A stretch of DNA of 64,000 nucleotides, from NCBI GenBank assembly GCA_947472795.1, contig CANJBL010000001.1, positions 62,001 through 126,000 on the forward strand, read 5' to 3'. The position numbers were made by a program, and so were the translations under genes. Every line of letters starts with the position of its first letter. The first letter of the stretch is position 1. Positions 28,040-37,993 of this stretch are shown one piece after another. The notes under the pieces are model-generated. The model searched no databases. It was not told the origin of the DNA and saw nothing but the letters and a program-made list of their open reading frames with translations. The DNA comes from Fidelibacterota bacterium. Lineage in GTDB: Bacteria > Pseudomonadota > Alphaproteobacteria > Rhodospirillales > Rhodospirillaceae.

Positions 28040-28480
28040 TTATTTATGTACAATCTGGGCGCGGATCTCACCGCCCTTATTAGCTGCGGTGTGAACGTTG
28101 ACATAGTCCTTGCCGGCCAAGATGTCGGCGAGCTGAGCATCTGTCAGAGTTGCCTTACCTTCGATGGGACTCTTCGGCGAGGAGCCTTGCGGCACCAGCG
28201 CGGCAACGACGCCGGCATTGGCACCGGCAGCCGCCGGACCATGAATATGGGCCGCGGTGGCTTCACCGGTCAGACCTTCGTAGGTCACCTTCCAGCTCAC
28301 TTCCTTGGTGGCATCGTTTACGGTGATCTCGGCGGTGCCTTTGCCGGTGGATGTGTTGGCAGGCACTTCCTGGGCGCTGGTGAGATCAACCTTGAACTTG
28401 TGTTCGGCAGCGTTTGCGCTCGCGAAAGTCAGTCCAGCGGCGATCAAAGAGCCGGCGGCGATACGAAACAATGTGGTCAT
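28040..28480 (-). CDS. secreted CHRD-domain protein
   Basis: A 146-residue protein: a signal peptide (cleavage after ANAA, about residue 25) and one CHRD domain of the type found in chordin. Motifs are LTSAQEVPA near the N-terminus of the mature protein, TAAHIHGPAAAGANAGVVAAL, and YVNVHTAANKGGEIRAQI at the end. Bacterial CHRD proteins are periplasmic or extracellular and mostly uncharacterised; conserved histidines suggest metal binding. Shine-Dalgarno AGGAGGAGG is strong and a terminator follows, so it is a well-expressed single-gene unit. Confidence 0.9.
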   Translation of the reverse strand: MTTLFRIAAGSLIAAGLTFASANAAEHKFKVDLTSAQEVPANTSTGKGTAEITVNDATKEVSWKVTYEGLTGEATAAHIHGPAAAGANAGVVAALVPQGSSPKSPIEGKATLTDAQLADILAGKDYVNVHTAANKGGEIRAQIVHK

Positions 28481-28721
28481 TGAATCCTCCTCCTGAATGC
28501 GTCAAAACGGATGGGTGGGCCTTTTTTGGGGTGCTCAAAGGCGCCGGAAGGATAGTCCCTTGGACAAGCCTGTCCAGTGAATCCATGCTTGCAGGTTGAA
28601 GTTAGAGCAATCAGGTCGTTGAAATTAATGTGCAATAAAGGGGAACAAACGGTGCGGAGCGCGCATGTCTTGATTCTCCTTCTCGTGCCCCACAAGCGCT
28701 TGCGCTGATCAGGTCCTTTCG

Positions 28722-30806
28722 GTGTCCATCGCGACGCAAGACATCCAAGCGGCGATACAAGTCCTGTTGAATGGCTTGGCGGGATGCAAATCTTCCGACC
28801 AGACCGGCCAACTGATTTTCAAAGTGCATCAGTTTATCGGCGGGCTGGATCCGGCCGATGCAACTCACGTGCTTCTGGCACGCCCTCTTGTTGAAGCTAT
28901 GCTGAACAGCATCTTTGCGCGCATCCCGGAAAACATAAACGGCGTGGCGAGCACATCCGTGATGGCCTTTTTGGCCGCTCCCACCCTCAACGAGACGTGG
29001 CTTTCGCCCGCTGTCCCGCAAGCCCGCTGGCAAGACATGCACCACAACTTGATGACGGAAGCCGCGCGGCGCCCCACGGACTTCGCGGTGATCTTTCTTC
29101 TCATTGTCTGCGAGGGAATGCTTCTCGGTCCAAAGGGCGCTTTGGTCAAATTCATGGATCGTCTGTCCTATGTGAATTTTGAAACGACGCCCGATACGGC
29201 CGGGCGCCTGGGCAAGCTCGGCAGCGGCTTCATGATGTTCGGCTGGCTGGATCAGCCGTTTCCCGAGCTCACCGAAAAACTGGAAGCCGCGACGCAGCGG
29301 CAAATCGGTTTTGGTTCATCGGCCTTTAATGAATTCGTGAGGAAGACGCTCGCCATGTGGCGGTTCGATGTCAGCATGAGCGCGGCCTGGCTCGATTTTC
29401 TGACACACGCGCTTATGGTGCCTGCCCTCAAAGCCGCAGCACACGATACTGCGCTCGCCGAATTGGCGCTCCACTTAGATGAATTGCTGTACCTGGTCCC
29501 GCTGAAAAAGACCGAAACGCAAGCGGCCTTCAAAAACCTATATGCAACGATCGGTCCGCTTTTGACGGCGGCCGGCGAACAATTCGGGCGCGCGCATCCC
29601 ATGCCGCCGCGCGCCCTTCGTCCGGCCCATGAGCGGGTTCGGGTCGCATTTTTTCTCTGGGGCGATTTCACGACAGCGCACGCCGCTGCTCTCTTCCTGC
29701 TTTTGCGCGCCATGAATAAACTGGACTCCTGTCCGCTTCAGCTTTTCGTTCTGGTCGTGGACCGGCCCGGCGGCAATCTTCAGTATCTTCTTGATGCCGT
29801 CGCGAATTTGAATGTGACTGTGCGTTGGCCGGATATGCCAAAGACAACGGTTGCGGATGATATCCTCTGGATGCGCCGCCAGGCGGCCGCGGATGATATC
29901 GATAGCGTCATCTTTGTCTCGGTCACGATGATGGTGTGTTTCATGGCGGGGCTGGGACTTGCCCCCGTGCACACGTGGTGGACCTTAAAATACCACGACC
30001 TCTACGTGCCCCAGATCCAAGGCTATCTCGCCCTCGGTCTTTTTGGTCGGCTGAAGCTCGATCTCGGCCCCAACTGGACGATTGCCGATGTCTGCACGCC
30101 CGAGCTTACGGACCTTTCATTAGCGCCCGAAGCACGGCACCTCGCCCATGAGTATTCGGAAGGTGGCAAATACGTTCTGCTAGGGTGCATGGGGCGCTCC
30201 GAGAAACTTGTGGATCCTCGGTACGGCAGATCCTTGGCCCGCATTCTTCGCGCCTGTCCCGATGCCAAGTTCCTCTATACTGGCCGAACCCAGCGCCCGG
30301 AATTCACCCGCATTCTCGCTGAGGAAGGGATAACTGACCGTTGCCATTTCATCGGCTGGATCAATACAAAACTCTATGCCCAGGTGCTGGATGTTCAGGT
30401 TGACTCTTTCCCTTTTGCCTCTGGCATCACCACCATGGAGATGATGGCGGTGGGACGGCCAGCGGTGACACTATTGACGCCTGAATCAATGGAAACATCG
30501 GCGGCCACGTACTTCGTGCCGGTCTATCGCGGGGAAATCGGCGGCGCCGAAGACCAAGCCTTTGTCCAGAACCTCTTCAGGGACGACGAAGGGCCCGGGC
30601 TGTTTCCTTTTGCTGAAACCATCGAGATGTACGAAAACCTCGCCATTCGTCTTACAAAGAGTGCAGATTTGCGCGCGCGCGTTGGCGCCGCTTGCCGTGC
30701 ATTTATTGAACGCTATATGAGGAATGAAGCGCGCCACGCGCACTCCATGGGGCAGGAGATCATGAAAATCATCCACGGCCCCCAGCACCCCGGCGGGCCA
30801 TCTTAG
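28722..30806 (+). CDS. GT41/HMW1C-like GT-B glycosyltransferase, tandem copy 1
   Basis: A 694-residue protein. Residues 1-300 are helical without clear repeats. From about 305 (VRVAFFLWGDFTTAHAAAL) to the end there is a GT-B glycosyltransferase with two Rossmann halves; the C-terminal half has KYVLLGCMG, KFLYTGRTQRPEF, HFIGWINTKLYAQVLDVQVD and SFPFASGITTMEMMAVGRPA, resembling the UDP-sugar site of GT41 (OGT/SPINDLY) and HMW1C enzymes. No signal or membrane segment, so it is cytoplasmic. GTG start. It is paralogous to the next GT gene, about 83 % identical by eye over the ~136 residues around the active site and much less in the N-terminus. Acceptor unknown. Confidence 0.75.
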   Translation: MSIATQDIQAAIQVLLNGLAGCKSSDQTGQLIFKVHQFIGGLDPADATHVLLARPLVEAMLNSIFARIPENINGVASTSVMAFLAAPTLNETWLSPAVPQARWQDMHHNLMTEAARRPTDFAVIFLLIVCEGMLLGPKGALVKFMDRLSYVNFETTPDTAGRLGKLGSGFMMFGWLDQPFPELTEKLEAATQRQIGFGSSAFNEFVRKTLAMWRFDVSMSAAWLDFLTHALMVPALKAAAHDTALAELALHLDELLYLVPLKKTETQAAFKNLYATIGPLLTAAGEQFGRAHPMPPRALRPAHERVRVAFFLWGDFTTAHAAALFLLLRAMNKLDSCPLQLFVLVVDRPGGNLQYLLDAVANLNVTVRWPDMPKTTVADDILWMRRQAAADDIDSVIFVSVTMMVCFMAGLGLAPVHTWWTLKYHDLYVPQIQGYLALGLFGRLKLDLGPNWTIADVCTPELTDLSLAPEARHLAHEYSEGGKYVLLGCMGRSEKLVDPRYGRSLARILRACPDAKFLYTGRTQRPEFTRILAEEGITDRCHFIGWINTKLYAQVLDVQVDSFPFASGITTMEMMAVGRPAVTLLTPESMETSAATYFVPVYRGEIGGAEDQAFVQNLFRDDEGPGLFPFAETIEMYENLAIRLTKSADLRARVGAACRAFIERYMRNEARHAHSMGQEIMKIIHGPQHPGGPS

Positions 30807-30810
30807 AATC

Positions 30811-30921
30811 ATGTGTGGCATTACCGCCTTTCTGAATTATCTTCCGTCGCGCCTGTGCCATGTGGACCATCGGCGCCGGTCCATCATTAACCGAACCACC
30901 TACCGCAAGCGCTTGGGCTGA
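30811..30921 (+). pseudogene. internally deleted remnant of the asnB 5' end
   Basis: A 36-codon open frame begins MCGITAFLNYLPSR, matching the first 14 residues of the intact AsnB at 33023 (MCGIAGFLNFLPSR). It then jumps to CHVDHRRRSIIN, which matches AsnB residues CHLGHRRLSIID; about 33 codons are missing between. Both the remnant and the intact asnB lie four bases after a GT stop codon. After the remnant, CAAGCGCTTG-x-GCTGA leads into the second GT gene and also occurs just before the first GT gene. It is the scar of a tandem GT-asnB duplication; whether the 36-residue peptide is made is unknown. Confidence 0.88.
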
Positions 30922-30933
30922 CGAGGATCATTC

Positions 30934-33018
30934 GTGTCGACTGAAATGCAAAAGACCGCGGCCGAGATCGAGACGCTTTTGCAGGATTTGGCAACGAGCA
31001 GGAACGCCGAACAGATCAACCAGCTTGCTTTCAAATCTTATCAGGTGATCTCCAGCCTGGATCCGGCTGTAGAGGCTCACAGGCTTCACGCCCAGCCGCT
31101 GGCGGAGCTTGTATTGGATCGCATTCTTTTGCTCGTTACCGAAGGCATGAAAGGTGGCAACATCGTCGTTGCTTTAACTTTCCTTGCCGGGCCAACCATC
31201 AAGGATCGGTGGCTTCATCAGGTCCCATCTCTCACCGCCTGGCAGAACTTGTACACCACTGCCCTGGATGAGATTTCGCGGCGACCCTCCGATTTCGGCG
31301 TTCTGCTGCTACTGCTGACATGCGAAGGCCTTCTCTTCGGCCGTGATCAGGCTTTAACGAAATTCTCTGATCGCCTGTCGCAGGTGAACTTTGTGACATC
31401 CCCCGAGATCGTCGCCCCCCTCAACGCGCTCGGCAACGGCTTCTCGCTTTTTGGATGGATGGATGACCCTTCCCCGGAGTTCGGTAGGAGCTTGGAAGCA
31501 GGCGTTGAGCGCCAGATTGGGTTTGGTCCGGTGTCATTCTCGCATTTCCTGTACAATGTACTCACGATGTGGCGCTTGGACGTCAACTCGAGCTCCGCCT
31601 GGCTCGCATGCCTGACCCAATATTTGGCAGCGCCTGCCCTCAAGGTATCAGCCGAGCACGCCAGCCTTTCGGATTTGGTCCTCTATCTCGACCGACTGAT
31701 GTATCTCGTCAATCTCAAGAAGATCGATACCGCCGCCAACTTCAAGGCTCTGTACGCCACCATCGGGCCGCTGCTGGCAGCGGCCGGAGAACGGCTTGCG
31801 CGCGCGCACCCTCTGCCGCAGCGTACGGCGCGCGCCGCGCACGAACGCCCGCGTATAGGGTTTTTCATCTGGGGCGATTTCACGACGGCGCATGCCAGTG
31901 CGCTGCTCCTGCTTCTGCGCGCTGTGCATAGGCTCGATCCGTGTCCGCTCCAGCTTTATGTCCTTGTGCTCGACCGGCCCGGTGCCAATCTTCAATATCT
32001 TCTTGATGCCGTGGCAGACCTGGACGTCGCGGTGCGCTGGCAGCAAACGCCCACGACCAGCGTCACCGACGACATCCTGTGGATGCGCCGGCAAGCCGCG
32101 GAAGACGAACTCGACGGCTTTGTCTTCATTTCCGTCACCATGATGATGTGCTTCATGGCCGGATTGGGAATGGCGCCCGTTCACATTTGGTGGACACTCA
32201 AGTATCACGATCTTTATCTGCCCCAAATCCAAGGCTACCTGGCGCAAGGTCTTTTCGGCCGGTTGAAATTGCAGCTCGGTGCGAATTGGACCATTGCTGA
32301 AGTTTGCGTCCCGGAATTGACCGATCTTTCGCTGGCGCCCGAAGCAGCGCGACTGGCTCATGAACATTCGGAAGGGGGCAAGTACGTTCTGCTGGGCTGC
32401 ATGGGGCGCGCCGAAAAGATCATCGATCCGCGTTATGGCAAGTCACTGGCGCGTATTCTGCGGGCCTGCCCACAGGCCAAATTCCTTTACACCGGACGCG
32501 GGCAACGTCCCGAATTCCTGCGGATGATGGAGGAGGAAGGTATCGCCGACCGCTGCCATTTCATTGGGTGGATCAACACCAAGCTTTATGCCCAAGTACT
32601 GGACGTGCAGGTTGACTCGTTCCCCTTCGCTTCAGGCATCACCAGCATGCAAATGATGGCAGTCGGCCGGCCCGTGGTGACGATGATCACGGCGGAGTCC
32701 ATGGAAACGTCGGCGGCCACCTACTTCGTGCCGGTTCATCACGGCGAAATCGGCACGGCGGAAGACCAGGCATTTGTGCGCATACTCTTTACGGATGATG
32801 ACGGATCTTCGATTTTCCCCTTCCTTGAGACGGCGGACGCCTATGAAGCCCTCACCATCCGTCTTGCGCACGACGCCCGCCTGCGCTCTCGCATCGGCGC
32901 CGGTTGCCGCGCCTTTATCGAGCGGTATATGAGAAACGAAGAACGCTACGCACGCTCGGCGGCGCACGAGCTCACGAGCATCGTGACGCGCATGCAGCAT
33001 CCTAGCCCGGAACACTAA
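30934..33018 (+). CDS. GT41/HMW1C-like GT-B glycosyltransferase, tandem copy 2
   Basis: A second 694-residue protein of the same architecture as the gene ending at 30806: a diverged helical N-terminal region (1-300) and a strongly conserved GT-B domain with PRIGFFIWGDFTTAHASAL, KFLYTGRGQRPEF, HFIGWINTKLYAQVLDVQVD and SFPFASGITSMQMMAVGRPV. GTG start with GAGG nine bases upstream; the leader resembles that of copy 1. It is followed four bases later by intact asnB, so the two are probably translated together. Conserved catalytic half with drifting N-terminus suggests the copies now recognise different acceptors. Confidence 0.75.
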   Translation: MSTEMQKTAAEIETLLQDLATSRNAEQINQLAFKSYQVISSLDPAVEAHRLHAQPLAELVLDRILLLVTEGMKGGNIVVALTFLAGPTIKDRWLHQVPSLTAWQNLYTTALDEISRRPSDFGVLLLLLTCEGLLFGRDQALTKFSDRLSQVNFVTSPEIVAPLNALGNGFSLFGWMDDPSPEFGRSLEAGVERQIGFGPVSFSHFLYNVLTMWRLDVNSSSAWLACLTQYLAAPALKVSAEHASLSDLVLYLDRLMYLVNLKKIDTAANFKALYATIGPLLAAAGERLARAHPLPQRTARAAHERPRIGFFIWGDFTTAHASALLLLLRAVHRLDPCPLQLYVLVLDRPGANLQYLLDAVADLDVAVRWQQTPTTSVTDDILWMRRQAAEDELDGFVFISVTMMMCFMAGLGMAPVHIWWTLKYHDLYLPQIQGYLAQGLFGRLKLQLGANWTIAEVCVPELTDLSLAPEAARLAHEHSEGGKYVLLGCMGRAEKIIDPRYGKSLARILRACPQAKFLYTGRGQRPEFLRMMEEEGIADRCHFIGWINTKLYAQVLDVQVDSFPFASGITSMQMMAVGRPVVTMITAESMETSAATYFVPVHHGEIGTAEDQAFVRILFTDDDGSSIFPFLETADAYEALTIRLAHDARLRSRIGAGCRAFIERYMRNEERYARSAAHELTSIVTRMQHPSPEH

Positions 33019-33022
33019 CATC

Positions 33023-34825
33023 ATGTGCGGCATCGCGGGCTTTCTGAACTTTCTTCCGTCGCGCTCTCCGCAGGCGATTCGCGATCTCGTGCTAGCCATG
33101 AATCAGGCCCAAGCCCATCGCGGGCCCGATGCCGACGGTTACTGGGCGGATGCCGAAAATCGCTGTCACCTCGGTCATCGCCGCTTGTCGATCATCGATC
33201 TGTCCACGGCGGCCAACCAGCCGATGCTGGATGAGACCGGCCGCTACGCCATGGCATTCAACGGCGAAATCTACAACTTCAAGGATTTGCGCCGGGACCT
33301 GGAAGCGCGCGGCATTCAGTTCCGCACCCATTCCGATACCGAAGTACTCCTGCGTCTGTTCATCGCGGAGGGTCCCGCCGCCTTCAAGCGCTGCGACGGC
33401 ATGTTCGCCGTGGCGATCTACGACACCCACACCAAAACGCTGACGCTGGCCAGAGACCGCTGCGGCGAGAAGCCCCTGTACGTCGCAACCACGGCCGGGT
33501 TTTTCGCCTTTGCTTCGGAACTGCGCGCGCTGACGGCGCTGCCGGACTTTACCTACGAGATCTCCGAAACCGGCCTCGCACTCTATATGGCGCTCCGCTA
33601 TGTGCCGCCGCCGCGGACTATTTTTGAAGGCATCGGCAAGCTTGAGCCGGGCTGTTTTCTTCAGATCGGGCCCGACGGCGTGCAGCGCCGCGAGCGCTAT
33701 TTCCATTTTCAGATCGACGATGCTCGGGCCGCTGCGCCGCAAGACATCGATGCGTACGCGGAGCAAGTAGAAGCCGCTCTGCAAAGTTCGCTTGAAGCGC
33801 GCCTCAACAGCGATGTGCCATTGGGAGCTTTCCTCTCGAGCGGCGTCGACTCATCCTTGGTGTGCGCCATCCTGGCCAAAAAAATGCAGCGGCCGCTGCA
33901 CACTTATACTGTTGGCTTTGCCGACGATGCACAAAGCGAGGATACAGCGGCACGGGCCATCGCCCGGCACCTCGGCACCCAGCATGAGGATTTTGTTTTT
34001 GGGGCCGCCGACTTCGACGCCATTTGCGGCAAAATCGGCACCCTGCTGGATGAACCCAACGGCGACCGCAGCTGCGTTCCCACGTATCTCCTGTCCCAGT
34101 TCGCGCGCCAGCACGTGAAGGTGGCGATCTCCGGCGACGGCGGCGATGAACTCTTCGCGGGTTATGGGCGGTATATCGCTTTCATGGCACAGACCGCCCA
34201 GACCAAATGGCCTTCGGCGGCGGCCATTCCCCAATATTATTTTTCCGCGGCCTTGCCGGTGTTCCCGTGGCAGGCGATCCAGGATGTAGCACCGGGCGGC
34301 ATGGGCGAAGTTCAGGGCTTCACCGGTTCTTTCGGCAATCTCTTCACAGCGCCGGGCCGCAACATGCTCAACGCGTTGCGCCTGCTGGACTTCGAGACCT
34401 ATATGCCGGGCGCGGTGCTGGCCAAGGTTGACCGCATGAGCATGCAACACGGGCTGGAAGTGCGCACACCTTATCTCTCCCCGGCCCTCATGGCCTTGAG
34501 CAGCACGGCGCCGCTGCCTGCCCTGTTCGACGGCAAGGCGCAAAAAGCGGTGTTGCGCCGCCTCATGGCGAAATATGTGCCGCAGGAATTCGCCTATGCC
34601 CCCAAGAAGGGTTTCGGCATGCCGGCCAGCGTCTTTCTGCAGAATGCGGATCGTGTGCGCGCCGAGATCAATTCCGCCATCGGCGCGCTGGCGCAAAGCT
34701 CCTTCTTTGCCGCGCGCAAAGGCAGTATCGAGAAGCTGGCGGTCTGGGCGGGCCACAACACCAACTCCATCTGGGCGACAATCGTGCTCGGCAAATGGAT
34801 CGAATCCCTTGGGCGGCCCGTCTAG
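33023..34825 (+). CDS. asnB: asparagine synthetase (glutamine-hydrolysing) family protein
   Basis: A 600-residue class II glutamine amidotransferase/synthetase. Cys2 after the initiator Met is the glutaminase nucleophile (MCGIAGFLNF); HRGPDADGYW and AFNGEIYNF complete that domain (about 1-210). The synthetase domain has the PP-loop LSSGVDSSLVCAIL (about 273-286) and SGDGGDELFAGYGRY. Genuine AsnB makes asparagine; homologues in polysaccharide loci amidate sugars or other carboxylates. Here it is embedded among glycosyltransferases, so a glycan-modifying role is as likely as amino acid synthesis. A decayed copy of its 5' end precedes GT copy 2. Confidence 0.88.
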   Translation: MCGIAGFLNFLPSRSPQAIRDLVLAMNQAQAHRGPDADGYWADAENRCHLGHRRLSIIDLSTAANQPMLDETGRYAMAFNGEIYNFKDLRRDLEARGIQFRTHSDTEVLLRLFIAEGPAAFKRCDGMFAVAIYDTHTKTLTLARDRCGEKPLYVATTAGFFAFASELRALTALPDFTYEISETGLALYMALRYVPPPRTIFEGIGKLEPGCFLQIGPDGVQRRERYFHFQIDDARAAAPQDIDAYAEQVEAALQSSLEARLNSDVPLGAFLSSGVDSSLVCAILAKKMQRPLHTYTVGFADDAQSEDTAARAIARHLGTQHEDFVFGAADFDAICGKIGTLLDEPNGDRSCVPTYLLSQFARQHVKVAISGDGGDELFAGYGRYIAFMAQTAQTKWPSAAAIPQYYFSAALPVFPWQAIQDVAPGGMGEVQGFTGSFGNLFTAPGRNMLNALRLLDFETYMPGAVLAKVDRMSMQHGLEVRTPYLSPALMALSSTAPLPALFDGKAQKAVLRRLMAKYVPQEFAYAPKKGFGMPASVFLQNADRVRAEINSAIGALAQSSFFAARKGSIEKLAVWAGHNTNSIWATIVLGKWIESLGRPV

Positions 34826-34885
34826 ACTCACCTAGGTCTAGAATCCCCCGGTGTTTCGGCTTTTCGTAAGGTACCTTCGGCCATC

Positions 34886-36478
34886 ATGATCCAGCCGCTT
34901 CCACACGATCTCGCGACAAAATTGGCCCAAGCGGAGCAGGCCTTGCGGACGCATCGGTTCGACGAAGCCCGTCGGCTTTGCAAAATTGTACTCGCGAAGG
35001 AATCCCGCTCGACCGGCGCCTTGAGAATATTGAGCGCCGCGGAACTGGGGCTTGGTAATGCGCCGCGCGCGATCCAGGGTCTTCGGCGCGCCCTCCAGCT
35101 CTCTCCGGCTGACGGCGCCATTGTGCGTGAACTCATCGGAGCGCTTGACGCATCAGAGAGTGACGACGAGGCCATAGCCATTCTGGAGCAAGCCAGCCTC
35201 GGCGCTCCTTCCTCGTACGATATATATGTCGCGCTAGTCGGGCTTTACGCGCGCACAAACAAGCTGGAATCGGGGATTGCCTTCCTCAAGAGCGCACATC
35301 AGCGCAACTCACAAGAATCCCTGCCGCTGCCTTTTCTCAGTCGCTTGTATCAGATGCGCGGCATGCTCGAAGACGCCGCCACCTATGCGCTGGCCTCGAT
35401 TGCGTTGAGCCCGCAATCAACTTTTGGCAGATATCAATTGGCTGCAACGCGTCTTTTTCAGAAGGACATTGCCGGCGCCAGGGATCTCTTGCGGGAGTGT
35501 CTTTTATCAACGCCTGAGAGCGGCAATGATAGGAATGCTTTGACGGATATTTTTAAAGACGCAGAGATGATTCTGCAGATTGAGCCGGGGTTGAAGAAAC
35601 GCGATTTCGCGTCTGTTCAGCAAAACGACTTTAGAGATGAAGCCGAAAAGAACATGGCGAACGCGTTTCGTCATCAGTTGGGCGAGCCTGGACAAAGGCA
35701 CATCGTTTTCTTTCACGTAGATTGGAAAGGCCGACATCCATTTCTCGCTGGGGGGACGGCGGAGGTGGATTACAGCAATACGCTGGCAACCGCCTGCGAC
35801 GCCGCCGCGCGCGCGGCGCCGGATGCCGCTATCCTTCTTCTGACCGACAAGGCCAGCCGAACAGACCATCTCCCGGCCGCGGTGCGCGTTTTGCGGGCGG
35901 AGGTCGACTCGGCACAGATGATGTACGCCCGCATGAAGGCTTACCGCGCCCTTGCGATGACACAGACGCTTGCCGGGCCAACCCTCTTTCTGGATACGGA
36001 TGTCTGCCTGAATCGCGATTTCCGCGAATTGGTGACCGGCGATTTTGATATCGGCCTGACGTACAGAACCGGTATTGGGTTTTGGCACATGCCCGTGAAC
36101 GAAGGTCTGATCATCGCACCCGATGGGGCCTCACCGGCGCTCACGCAGTTCTTCGGCGAAGCGCTTGAGATCTACGATTGGCTGGCGGAGCAGGAGGCGA
36201 TCAGGGCGCGTTACGGCTTTGATGTGCGCATGTGGCGCGGCGGGCAACTCTCGCTCGGCGCCTTGCTGAATTGGGATACGCCACCTTGTGCGCCCGACAC
36301 CCTCACCCTGCGCCAGGTGCGCTACCGGTTCTTTCCCGCCGATACCTACAATTATTCTGTCCGCCCCAATGATTCTTTCGCCCGCCTCGCCGGGAAATGG
36401 GCGGTCCATTTCAAAGGCGCTCAGACCAAAGCCATGATGACCGCCTATAACCAGACGGCCCACCAGCGCAGGGCCTGA
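34886..36478 (+). CDS. TPR-repeat protein fused to a GT-A-like glycosyltransferase domain
   Basis: A 530-residue protein. Residues 1-200 contain about five TPR-like repeats (AEQALRTHRFDEARRLCKIVL, split over repeats; GLRRALQLSPADGAIVREL; ATYALASIALSPQ). Residues ~270-520 form a probable GT-A domain: HIVFFHVDWKG opens it, LFLDTD holds the metal-binding Asp370-x-Asp372, and MPVNEGLIIAPDG and WRGGQLSLGALLNW follow; AVHFKGAQTKAMM at the end may place a nucleotide-binding His. Cytoplasmic by prediction. It lies 60 bases after asnB on the same strand and probably serves the same glycan or protein-glycosylation pathway. Confidence 0.72.
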   Translation: MIQPLPHDLATKLAQAEQALRTHRFDEARRLCKIVLAKESRSTGALRILSAAELGLGNAPRAIQGLRRALQLSPADGAIVRELIGALDASESDDEAIAILEQASLGAPSSYDIYVALVGLYARTNKLESGIAFLKSAHQRNSQESLPLPFLSRLYQMRGMLEDAATYALASIALSPQSTFGRYQLAATRLFQKDIAGARDLLRECLLSTPESGNDRNALTDIFKDAEMILQIEPGLKKRDFASVQQNDFRDEAEKNMANAFRHQLGEPGQRHIVFFHVDWKGRHPFLAGGTAEVDYSNTLATACDAAARAAPDAAILLLTDKASRTDHLPAAVRVLRAEVDSAQMMYARMKAYRALAMTQTLAGPTLFLDTDVCLNRDFRELVTGDFDIGLTYRTGIGFWHMPVNEGLIIAPDGASPALTQFFGEALEIYDWLAEQEAIRARYGFDVRMWRGGQLSLGALLNWDTPPCAPDTLTLRQVRYRFFPADTYNYSVRPNDSFARLAGKWAVHFKGAQTKAMMTAYNQTAHQRRA

Positions 36479-36506
36479 TGGCGGGATGATTCATGACAAA
36501 TTGAAG

Positions 36507-36583
36507 TGGCGCGCCCGGAAAGACTCGAACTTCCAGCCTTCTGATTCGTAGTCAGATGCTCTATCCAATTGAGCTACGGGCGC
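36507..36583 (-). tRNA. tRNA-Arg (anticodon ACG)
   Basis: Read on the minus strand, the acceptor stem GCGCCCG pairs with CGGGCGC, the D-arm carries AGCTCAATTGGATAGAGC, the anticodon stem TCTGA/TCAGA holds loop CTACGAA with anticodon ACG (read as ICG after deamination), and the T-arm has GTTCGAGTC. Discriminator G and an encoded CCA end the 77-base gene. It sits 28 bases after the TPR-glycosyltransferase gene, on the opposite strand, at the right border of the glycosylation island; tRNA genes are common integration sites, but no att-like repeat was found. Confidence 0.97.
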
Positions 36584-37015
36584 ATCGCTGGACCAATGGG
36601 GAACCCACCGGCCGCTTTCGGAACCCCTGGGGACGGAGCAAACGCAAGCCGTACAGCGACTTGCTGGATTTTTCGCCCCGGTCCCGTCGGGGAGGCTTGG
36701 GATACTAAGATCGCCCGGGCGATGCAAGGAAAACAATTGGGTGGCATCCACATGCTTGGCGCCCTGCGAGTCGTCTGGCGGCTTGTTCTGGGAGGTGCCA
36801 TCGCGTAAAGTCGCTTCTTGCATGGGGTGTTGCCGAATTTTGGAGCATCCCCAAGCCTTTGGGGGCGGTTCCTAAAGAGTGTTATGGGGCATTGTTTCGG
36901 GGCAGACCGGAAGTTTGGGCAAGGCGTGGTGCGTCGGCTCATCGGTCGTGGGAATGTGAGTGTCAGGATGCAGGTACAGGGGCTGTCCAGCCAGGACCGG
37001 GAACAAGGCAAAAGC
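36584..37015. other. 432-base intergenic region
   Basis: The gap between the tRNA and the lipoprotein gene must hold the tRNA promoter (minus) and the lipoprotein promoter (plus). Small GC-rich hairpins occur (CCCCG/CGGGG around 36678-36694; CCCCAA/TTGGGGG at 36849-36864). Open frames crossing it overlap the tRNA or lack start signals and are not accepted. No clear -35/-10 pair stands out. Confidence 0.3.
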
Positions 37016-37993
37016 GTGAGTTCTCAGCATAAAGCGGGCTTCGCCATGGGCAGGCCGATGATCGTAATCTCCCTGGTACTGGGCCTGAATGCCTGCGCCG
37101 CGCCCAGCCAAAGCGCCGCTGCCGCCGAGCGGCAAGTGGCCGCGGCCGACGGTGTCCAGGCTCAGCCGCTGGCGCCGGCCAGCAGTTCCAGCAGCAAATT
37201 CGGCCCCACCGCCGTGGGCCAGAAAGCCGTCCAGTTCCGCACCGACTTCGAAAAGCTGAAAACCAATACCCAAACCCGTTCGGCGCAGCTCGATACTGTG
37301 CGCGCCCAAACCGTCGCCAATGTGAACTCCTATCACACGCTGGTGGGCACGATCCGCTCGCGCCTGCAGATGGGCTCGACCCCCGGCAACCCGGAACTGC
37401 TCGCCCAGTGGAGCCAGGCCCAGACCCAGATCACCCAGATCGATGCCGACATCGCTACCCTGAACCAGCTGTCGACTCAGGTGTCGGGCGATGCGGGTAC
37501 ATCGTCTTATCTTTTAGAGAATATCCGCGCCGCCTATGGCCTTTCGGGCGCCCTGGATGAAGACCACCGCCAGCTGCGTCTGCTGGAAGATGAAGTGAAC
37601 CAGAACGCTATCGCCATTGACCGCGCGCTGCTCAACCTGAACAGCGAGATCAATCGCCAGCAGCAGTATGTGACCACCGAGCGCACCGCGCTGGTGCAAC
37701 TGGCCTCTGACATCAACGCCGGTCAATCCTATGGCACGGCCGGTGCTGCAATGCGCCGTGCGGCCGTACCGGCCCGCGCCGTGGCCAGCGTGACCCCCGC
37801 CTCTTTCGCCGACAAGAAGCCGCTGGTGGTCATCAAGTTCGATAAAGCTGACGTTGCCTATGAACCAGCGCTCTATCAGGCCCTGAGCCGGGCGCTGGAA
37901 CGCCGCCCTGACGCCACTTTTGATCTGGTGGCCGTGTCGCCGACGGAAGGCAACGCCGCTGCCGCCCGCACCGATGCCGATTCTGTCTTCTAG
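37016..37993 (+). CDS. coiled-coil envelope lipoprotein, probably cut short by an amber codon
   Basis: A 325-residue protein with a lipoprotein signal (lipobox LNAC, Cys about residue 27), a Ser/Ala linker, a long helical region with coiled-coil character (about 65-230), and a C-terminal alpha/beta part (PLVVIKFDKADVAYEPALYQ, TFDLVAVSPTEGN) that reads like an OmpA-type peptidoglycan- or envelope-binding fold. GTG at 37016 is preferred (AAGG seven bases upstream); a longer frame to 36818 lacks support. The frame hits TAG at 37991, but 32 further in-frame codons downstream continue the domain and end in a natural TAA, so the stop may be a nonsense mutation, a suppressed codon or a sequence error. 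Confidence 0.7.
   Translation: MSSQHKAGFAMGRPMIVISLVLGLNACAAPSQSAAAAERQVAAADGVQAQPLAPASSSSSKFGPTAVGQKAVQFRTDFEKLKTNTQTRSAQLDTVRAQTVANVNSYHTLVGTIRSRLQMGSTPGNPELLAQWSQAQTQITQIDADIATLNQLSTQVSGDAGTSSYLLENIRAAYGLSGALDEDHRQLRLLEDEVNQNAIAIDRALLNLNSEINRQQQYVTTERTALVQLASDINAGQSYGTAGAAMRRAAVPARAVASVTPASFADKKPLVVIKFDKADVAYEPALYQALSRALERRPDATFDLVAVSPTEGNAAAARTDADSVF

Follow-up and report, generated by a model that had tools for sequence, protein, structure and literature searches.

What does a 36-codon open reading frame between two paralogous glycosyltransferase (GT) genes represent, and how did it come to lie there? The original prediction, made from the letters of the DNA, read it as the fossil of a tandem duplication in which an asnB gene had been lost between two GT copies. 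Here the locus is analysed within the window, the whole 64,000-nt stretch of DNA under study, which sits within a 441,778-base contig of a draft genome of 3.2 Mb (51 contigs, 97% complete).

Gene order and identity of the 36-codon frame

The two GT genes (copy 1, 28722-30806, + strand; copy 2, 30934-33018, + strand) each encode 694 amino acids, and their products align over the whole length with 63% identity. Copy 1 is a glycosyltransferase group 1-like protein and scores 26.1 bits against Glyco_trans_1_4, just under the cut-off of 27, while copy 2 lies above it at 28.3 bits. The GT family profile matches chain 5djs_A, which we take to be a bacterial OGT-like enzyme. GT copy 2 is followed by an intact asnB-like amidotransferase gene (33023-34825, +; 600 amino acids), whose product contains Asn_synthase and GATase domains and scores above the TIGR01536 cut-off, and then by a TPR gene (34886-36478, +; 530 amino acids). 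Downstream of the TPR gene lies a 391-codon open reading frame (36818-37993) without a Pfam or NCBIfam match at E<=0.001.

The frame between the GT genes (30811-30921, +) starts 4 nt past the stop codon of GT copy 1 and translates as MCGITAFLNYLPSRLCHVDHRRRSIINRTTYRKRLG followed by a stop. It consists of two blocks that correspond to separate parts of the intact asnB gene. Block 1 (30811-30852) represents AsnB codons 1-14 (33023-33064), with 35 of 42 nucleotides and 11 of 14 amino acids identical, and block 2 (30853-30900) represents AsnB codons 47-62 (33161-33208), with 29 of 48 nucleotides identical. Homology in block 2 is strongest over 30856-30891, where remnant codons 16-27 and AsnB codons 48-59 share 8 of 12 amino acids.

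That this frame is homologous to the start of AsnB had been proposed from the sequence, and the comparison bears it out. The two-block protein score against AsnB is 96.9; none of 2000 shuffles reaches it (maximum 51.4) and neither does any of the 390 other small open reading frames of the 64-kb window (maximum 49.1). Taken singly, each block outscores all 5000 of its own shuffles, and BLASTP of the remnant against AsnB alone with short-query settings returns E=5e-11. When the peptide is searched in its own genome, the matches are itself and AsnB (E=0.046, residues 1-15) only. A Pfam search of the 36-mer gave no match at E<=10, which is unsurprising given its length.

Most of the coding sequence has been lost, with 36 codons left as against 600 in the intact gene. 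Missing are 32-33 codons in frame between the two blocks (codons 15-46/47) and everything after about codon 62. The internal gap amounts to 33 residues, in agreement with the earlier estimate, or to 32 if Leu15 of the remnant is aligned to Arg47 of AsnB, and the frame does stay open behind it, running uninterrupted from 30811 to 30921 as had been claimed. Relative to five AsnBs, one of which (L049) itself has an internal stop, the remnant is changed at six residues identical in all of them: G6A, L50V, G51D, L55R, D59N and L60R. These changes show that the remnant is decaying. The motif FLNxLPSR is common to the remnant and the AsnB of the window and is absent from all four relatives. The complete GATase and synthase domains that define a functional AsnB/GATase are not present in the remnant; because it has 36 residues, no synthase domain and lacks most of the GATase domain, it likely has no catalytic role. 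Judged by its sequence, the 36-codon frame is an asnB gene remnant and an ordinary case of duplication followed by gene loss.

Repeat anatomy and the upstream element

Direct repeats run along the GT genes with a spacing of 2212 nt (families D1, D4 and D14), and the last repeat, of 183 nt (D2; 30670-30852 and 32882-33064), covers the GT end, the stop codon and asnB codons 1-14 without interruption. The distance from GT stop to ATG, noted before as the same in both places, is indeed 4 nt behind each copy (TAG-AATC-ATG at 30804-30813; TAA-CATC-ATG at 33016-33025). A 32-nt element upstream of GT copy 1 (28690-28721, +) recurs before GT copy 2 (30903-30934, +) at 2213 nt (D6), the two being 78% identical. 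An alignment of the two units, which the original prediction had suggested, yields direct repeats at 2212-2213 nt across the GT gene, the asnB start and the upstream element. This anatomy gives good support to a head-to-tail duplication of a unit that reached at least into the beginning of asnB.

The upstream element contains a perfect palindrome, CAAGCGCTTG (28693-28702 in the first copy), together with GCTGA, and may be a regulatory or ribosome-binding element. Its second copy provides the last codons of the remnant, the TGA stop (30919-30921) and a Shine-Dalgarno-like stretch, GAGGA (30923-30927). The 16-nt pattern CAAGCGCTTGNGCTGA, reported earlier before both GT starts, occurs exactly in two places in the draft genome, one before each GT start; when up to 2 mismatches are allowed it is found in 16 places, versus 8 for the pattern read backwards. 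Between the two copies all 15 specified core bases and 25 of 32 bases overall are conserved, which is better than at the fourfold-site rate of the GT genes (P of about 1e-6 for the core, a value that is too small as the core was picked after being seen, and 1.5e-5 overall). Since the element is better kept than silent sites, part of it is probably functional, most simply as the ribosome-binding region of the GT genes. Before six more distant GT relatives the element was sought and not found, the best candidate agreeing at 9 of 15 bases.

The stretch CAAGCGCTTGGGCTGA was considered as a leftover 3' end of asnB and rejected, its match to the asnB end being at chance level (481 of 1000 shuffles were as good). 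Against the upstream region of GT copy 1 none of 1000 shuffles was as good, and the last codons and stop of the remnant match the element before GT copy 1, not the asnB end. The four gaps at 28482-28721, 30807-30933, 34826-34885 and 36479-36817 were scanned in six frames for further traces of asnB, the TPR gene or GT copy 2 (200 shuffles per comparison), and only the known remnant scored.

Substitution pattern and competing histories

Silent sites of the GT pair are near saturation, with 95 of 236 fourfold sites identical (0.40 versus 0.31 expected from composition). The remnant and AsnB, by comparison, agree at 55 of 75 sites, divided into 42 of 50 at codon positions 1 and 2 and 13 of 25 at position 3 (Fisher p 0.004), and their differences comprise 13 synonymous and 7 nonsynonymous changes (p 0.0015), whereas in the absence of selection a synonymous share of 30% is expected. 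Identity at positions 1 and 2 is thus 84%, whereas neutral decay since the duplication predicts 0.525-0.544 under a model that assumes equal silent rates in asnB and GT genes (P 3e-6 to 1e-5; P 0.0004-0.0008 at the upper confidence limit of fourfold identity). These timing statistics comprise 25 codons, the start codon being left out; codons 60-62, whose homology is uncertain, are excluded from the 26- and 25-codon counts and included in the 48-nt comparison.

The two blocks contribute unequally. Block 2 alone gives a Fisher p of 0.010 and block 1 alone is not significant (p 0.15). All six fourfold sites of block 1 are identical (p 0.004 at the GT rate), so that the signal of this block may be inflated, either by a short conversion tract copied from the intact asnB or by a low rate of synonymous change close to gene starts. 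Over block 2 the AsnB of a congener (31 of 48 nucleotides identical) is as similar to the remnant as the neighbouring AsnB is (29 of 48). The pattern over the 25 codons favours the view that, during most of the period after the duplication, selection acted on the protein encoded by the first asnB, as in a complete gene and unlike a stump. Given nearly saturated silent sites in the GT genes and conserved codons in the remnant, the first asnB was probably deleted late.

We infer an ancestral order GT-asnB-GT-asnB and consider the following account of its origin and loss to be the likely one. At some remote time, a unit composed of a short upstream element, a GT gene and an asnB-like gene would have undergone a head-to-tail duplication in place. 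Both GT copies would have been kept while diverging to 63% identity, and the first asnB, initially complete, would have remained intact and constrained at the protein level for most of that time before becoming dispensable beside the second copy. It would then have been removed by at least two deletions, one of some 32-33 codons, in frame and close to the start, and another of everything between about codon 62 and the 3' end. The remainder would be a decaying 36-codon frame that may still carry ribosomes from GT copy 1 to GT copy 2. The part of the original prediction that concerns duplication and loss stands, in line with the repeat period of 2212-2213 nt; that the first asnB was complete is favoured by the substitutions and not forced.

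A complete first asnB is not dictated by the anatomy of the locus, since the same anatomy would result had the duplication ended within asnB. In that case the first copy would have been born as a stump of ~62 codons, would later have lost 32-33 codons and would never have been complete. Such a history needs one event fewer, and the second upstream element starts right where asnB homology stops, at about codon 62. However, a stump would have no reason to be constrained as a protein, yet positions 1 and 2 show 84% identity against an expected 52-54%, and nonsynonymous differences are outnumbered by synonymous ones, so we regard a truncated birth as unlikely. Somewhat less probable still is the juxtaposition, by transfer or recombination, of two related GT-asnB cassettes of different origin, with subsequent deletion of the first asnB. 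The GT copies (63% amino acid identity; fourfold 0.40) have diverged as much as the AsnB of the window and that of a congener (63%; 0.50), and a search of 18 congeners yielded no GT of such similarity; both observations would suit separate origins. Against this, the two GT copies are by far each other's closest relatives, at 63% versus at most 36% for other long matches (a few short ones, of about 50-115 residues, reach 42%), their base composition is alike (GC 0.577 and 0.585) and the identical kind of upstream element precedes both. Duplication of one GT-asnB unit and later deletion of a complete, constrained first asnB is therefore the reading we prefer.

Related arrangements, present role and known systems

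The original prediction had pointed to relatives as the place where an intact first asnB or a single GT-asnB unit might be found; neither turned up, and in none of the relatives searched, class and phylum being represented by samples, does asnB come directly after a GT, whether in one unit or in two. Within 317 genomes of the order, four including the own genome have a GT match at E<=1e-60, with identities of at most 36% outside the own genome. In samples of the class (385 genomes) and phylum (398 genomes) the own genome alone passes E<=1e-70 for the GT (GT copy 2 in the phylum sample), and no other genome of the phylum samples (398 genomes) has a match to AsnB at E<=1e-180. A profile scan of genome_contigs for the GT confirmed 51 of 242 candidate stretches; ranked by E-value, the top one has 35% identity, and a single short match attains 42% across 115 residues. 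With GT copy 2 as a single query, 20 stretches of genome_contigs and 2 stretches of viral_contigs fitted a pattern and none was confirmed in either set, and tblastn against plasmids gave 3 records, each with at most 43% query coverage and at most 33% identity. No literature on such a locus was found, as far as titles and the beginnings of abstracts tell.

The AsnB of the window matches four of the 41 genomes searched, besides its own, at E<=1e-100 (54-63% identity). No GT of the GT1/GT2 kind lies within the 13 to 19 kb read around asnB in these four relatives (for one of them, L116, the contig holds just 2.5 kb before asnB), and three of them carry a TPR homologue that directly adjoins asnB, preceding it twice and following it once. 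With the TPR gene beside asnB and the GT absent, the wider partnership appears to be that of AsnB and the TPR gene, and the GT genes would have joined later or been lost elsewhere. In one congener the asnB orthologue (L117:8515-9966, G016:C1) contains an in-frame TAA; its first open reading frame ends after 483 codons and homology continues behind, so this seems to be another breaking asnB, or a sequence error.

Among the loci from L042 upward, which match AsnB at E<=1e-8, three clusters besides the window contain a GT-family gene and an asnB-like gene: one on contig 12 of the own genome (L042), one in G035 (L043) and one in G022 (L044). There, roughly 1.4 to 2.6 kb containing other open reading frames separate the asnB-like gene from the closest GT; it is on the opposite strand in two clusters and on the same strand in one, and in none does it immediately follow a GT. 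Two tandem GT-family genes overlapping by 4 nt, with no asnB between, are encoded in a different genome of the family, at L043:6835-11006 (-); tandem GT pairs recur.

Whatever the origin of the frame, it could be kept by selection as a short coupling open reading frame that hands ribosomes over from GT copy 1 to GT copy 2. A dying asnB would then have been re-used, the scrap being retained since bridging the two GT genes keeps their translation in step, and a lost gene would have turned regulatory. The frame replaces a gap of 127 nt by two short ones, of 4 nt between the GT copy 1 stop and the ATG and of 12 nt between the TGA and the GTG of GT copy 2, and a GAGGA stretch follows its stop. PMC10666635 reports that coupling is nearly lost once gaps reach about 20 nt, and that in E. 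coli a small set of genes has gaps around +10 nt, which would suit such a role. The same paper concludes, however, that short overlaps are needed for coupling, and neither junction here has one. GT copy 2 also has its own Shine-Dalgarno-like stretch, and spacing and stop codon are simply a legacy of the duplication. A candidate RNA structure over the remnant was rejected, folding being unremarkable (z 0.10), and an Rfam search of 28300-35000 at E<=1 gave one match, to a miRNA model, at 23.8 bits versus a gathering score of 100. Nothing in the data demands coupling, and we hold such a role to be very improbable.

Under the preferred history of duplication and late loss, the locus would be a snapshot of a duplicated operon being pared down, with both transferases kept and one of two amidotransferases gone, and the loss of asnB could be roughly dated by setting the nearly saturated silent sites against the conserved codons. 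It resembles bacterial gene remnants, or highly degraded pseudogenes, in that a gene start and a short conserved motif are left, most of the gene is deleted and conserved residues are changed; it differs from them in that a single open frame survived the deletions and sits directly between two retained paralogues. The youngest Salmonella pseudogenes are very likely removed by deletion, according to PMC2916853, which agrees with an asnB reduced to scrap. Set against the AsnB family of glutamine-hydrolysing asparagine synthases (TIGR01536; PF00733 plus a GATase domain), the remnant resembles the AsnB of the window at its N-terminal start and in the CHLGHRRLSIID stretch, but comprises 36 residues, has no synthase domain and has lost most of the GATase domain. 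Similar to short coupling or leader open reading frames in operons, it is flanked by two genes on the same strand, at distances of 4 and 12 nt; unlike them, it derives from a lost enzyme gene and overlaps its neighbours at neither junction.
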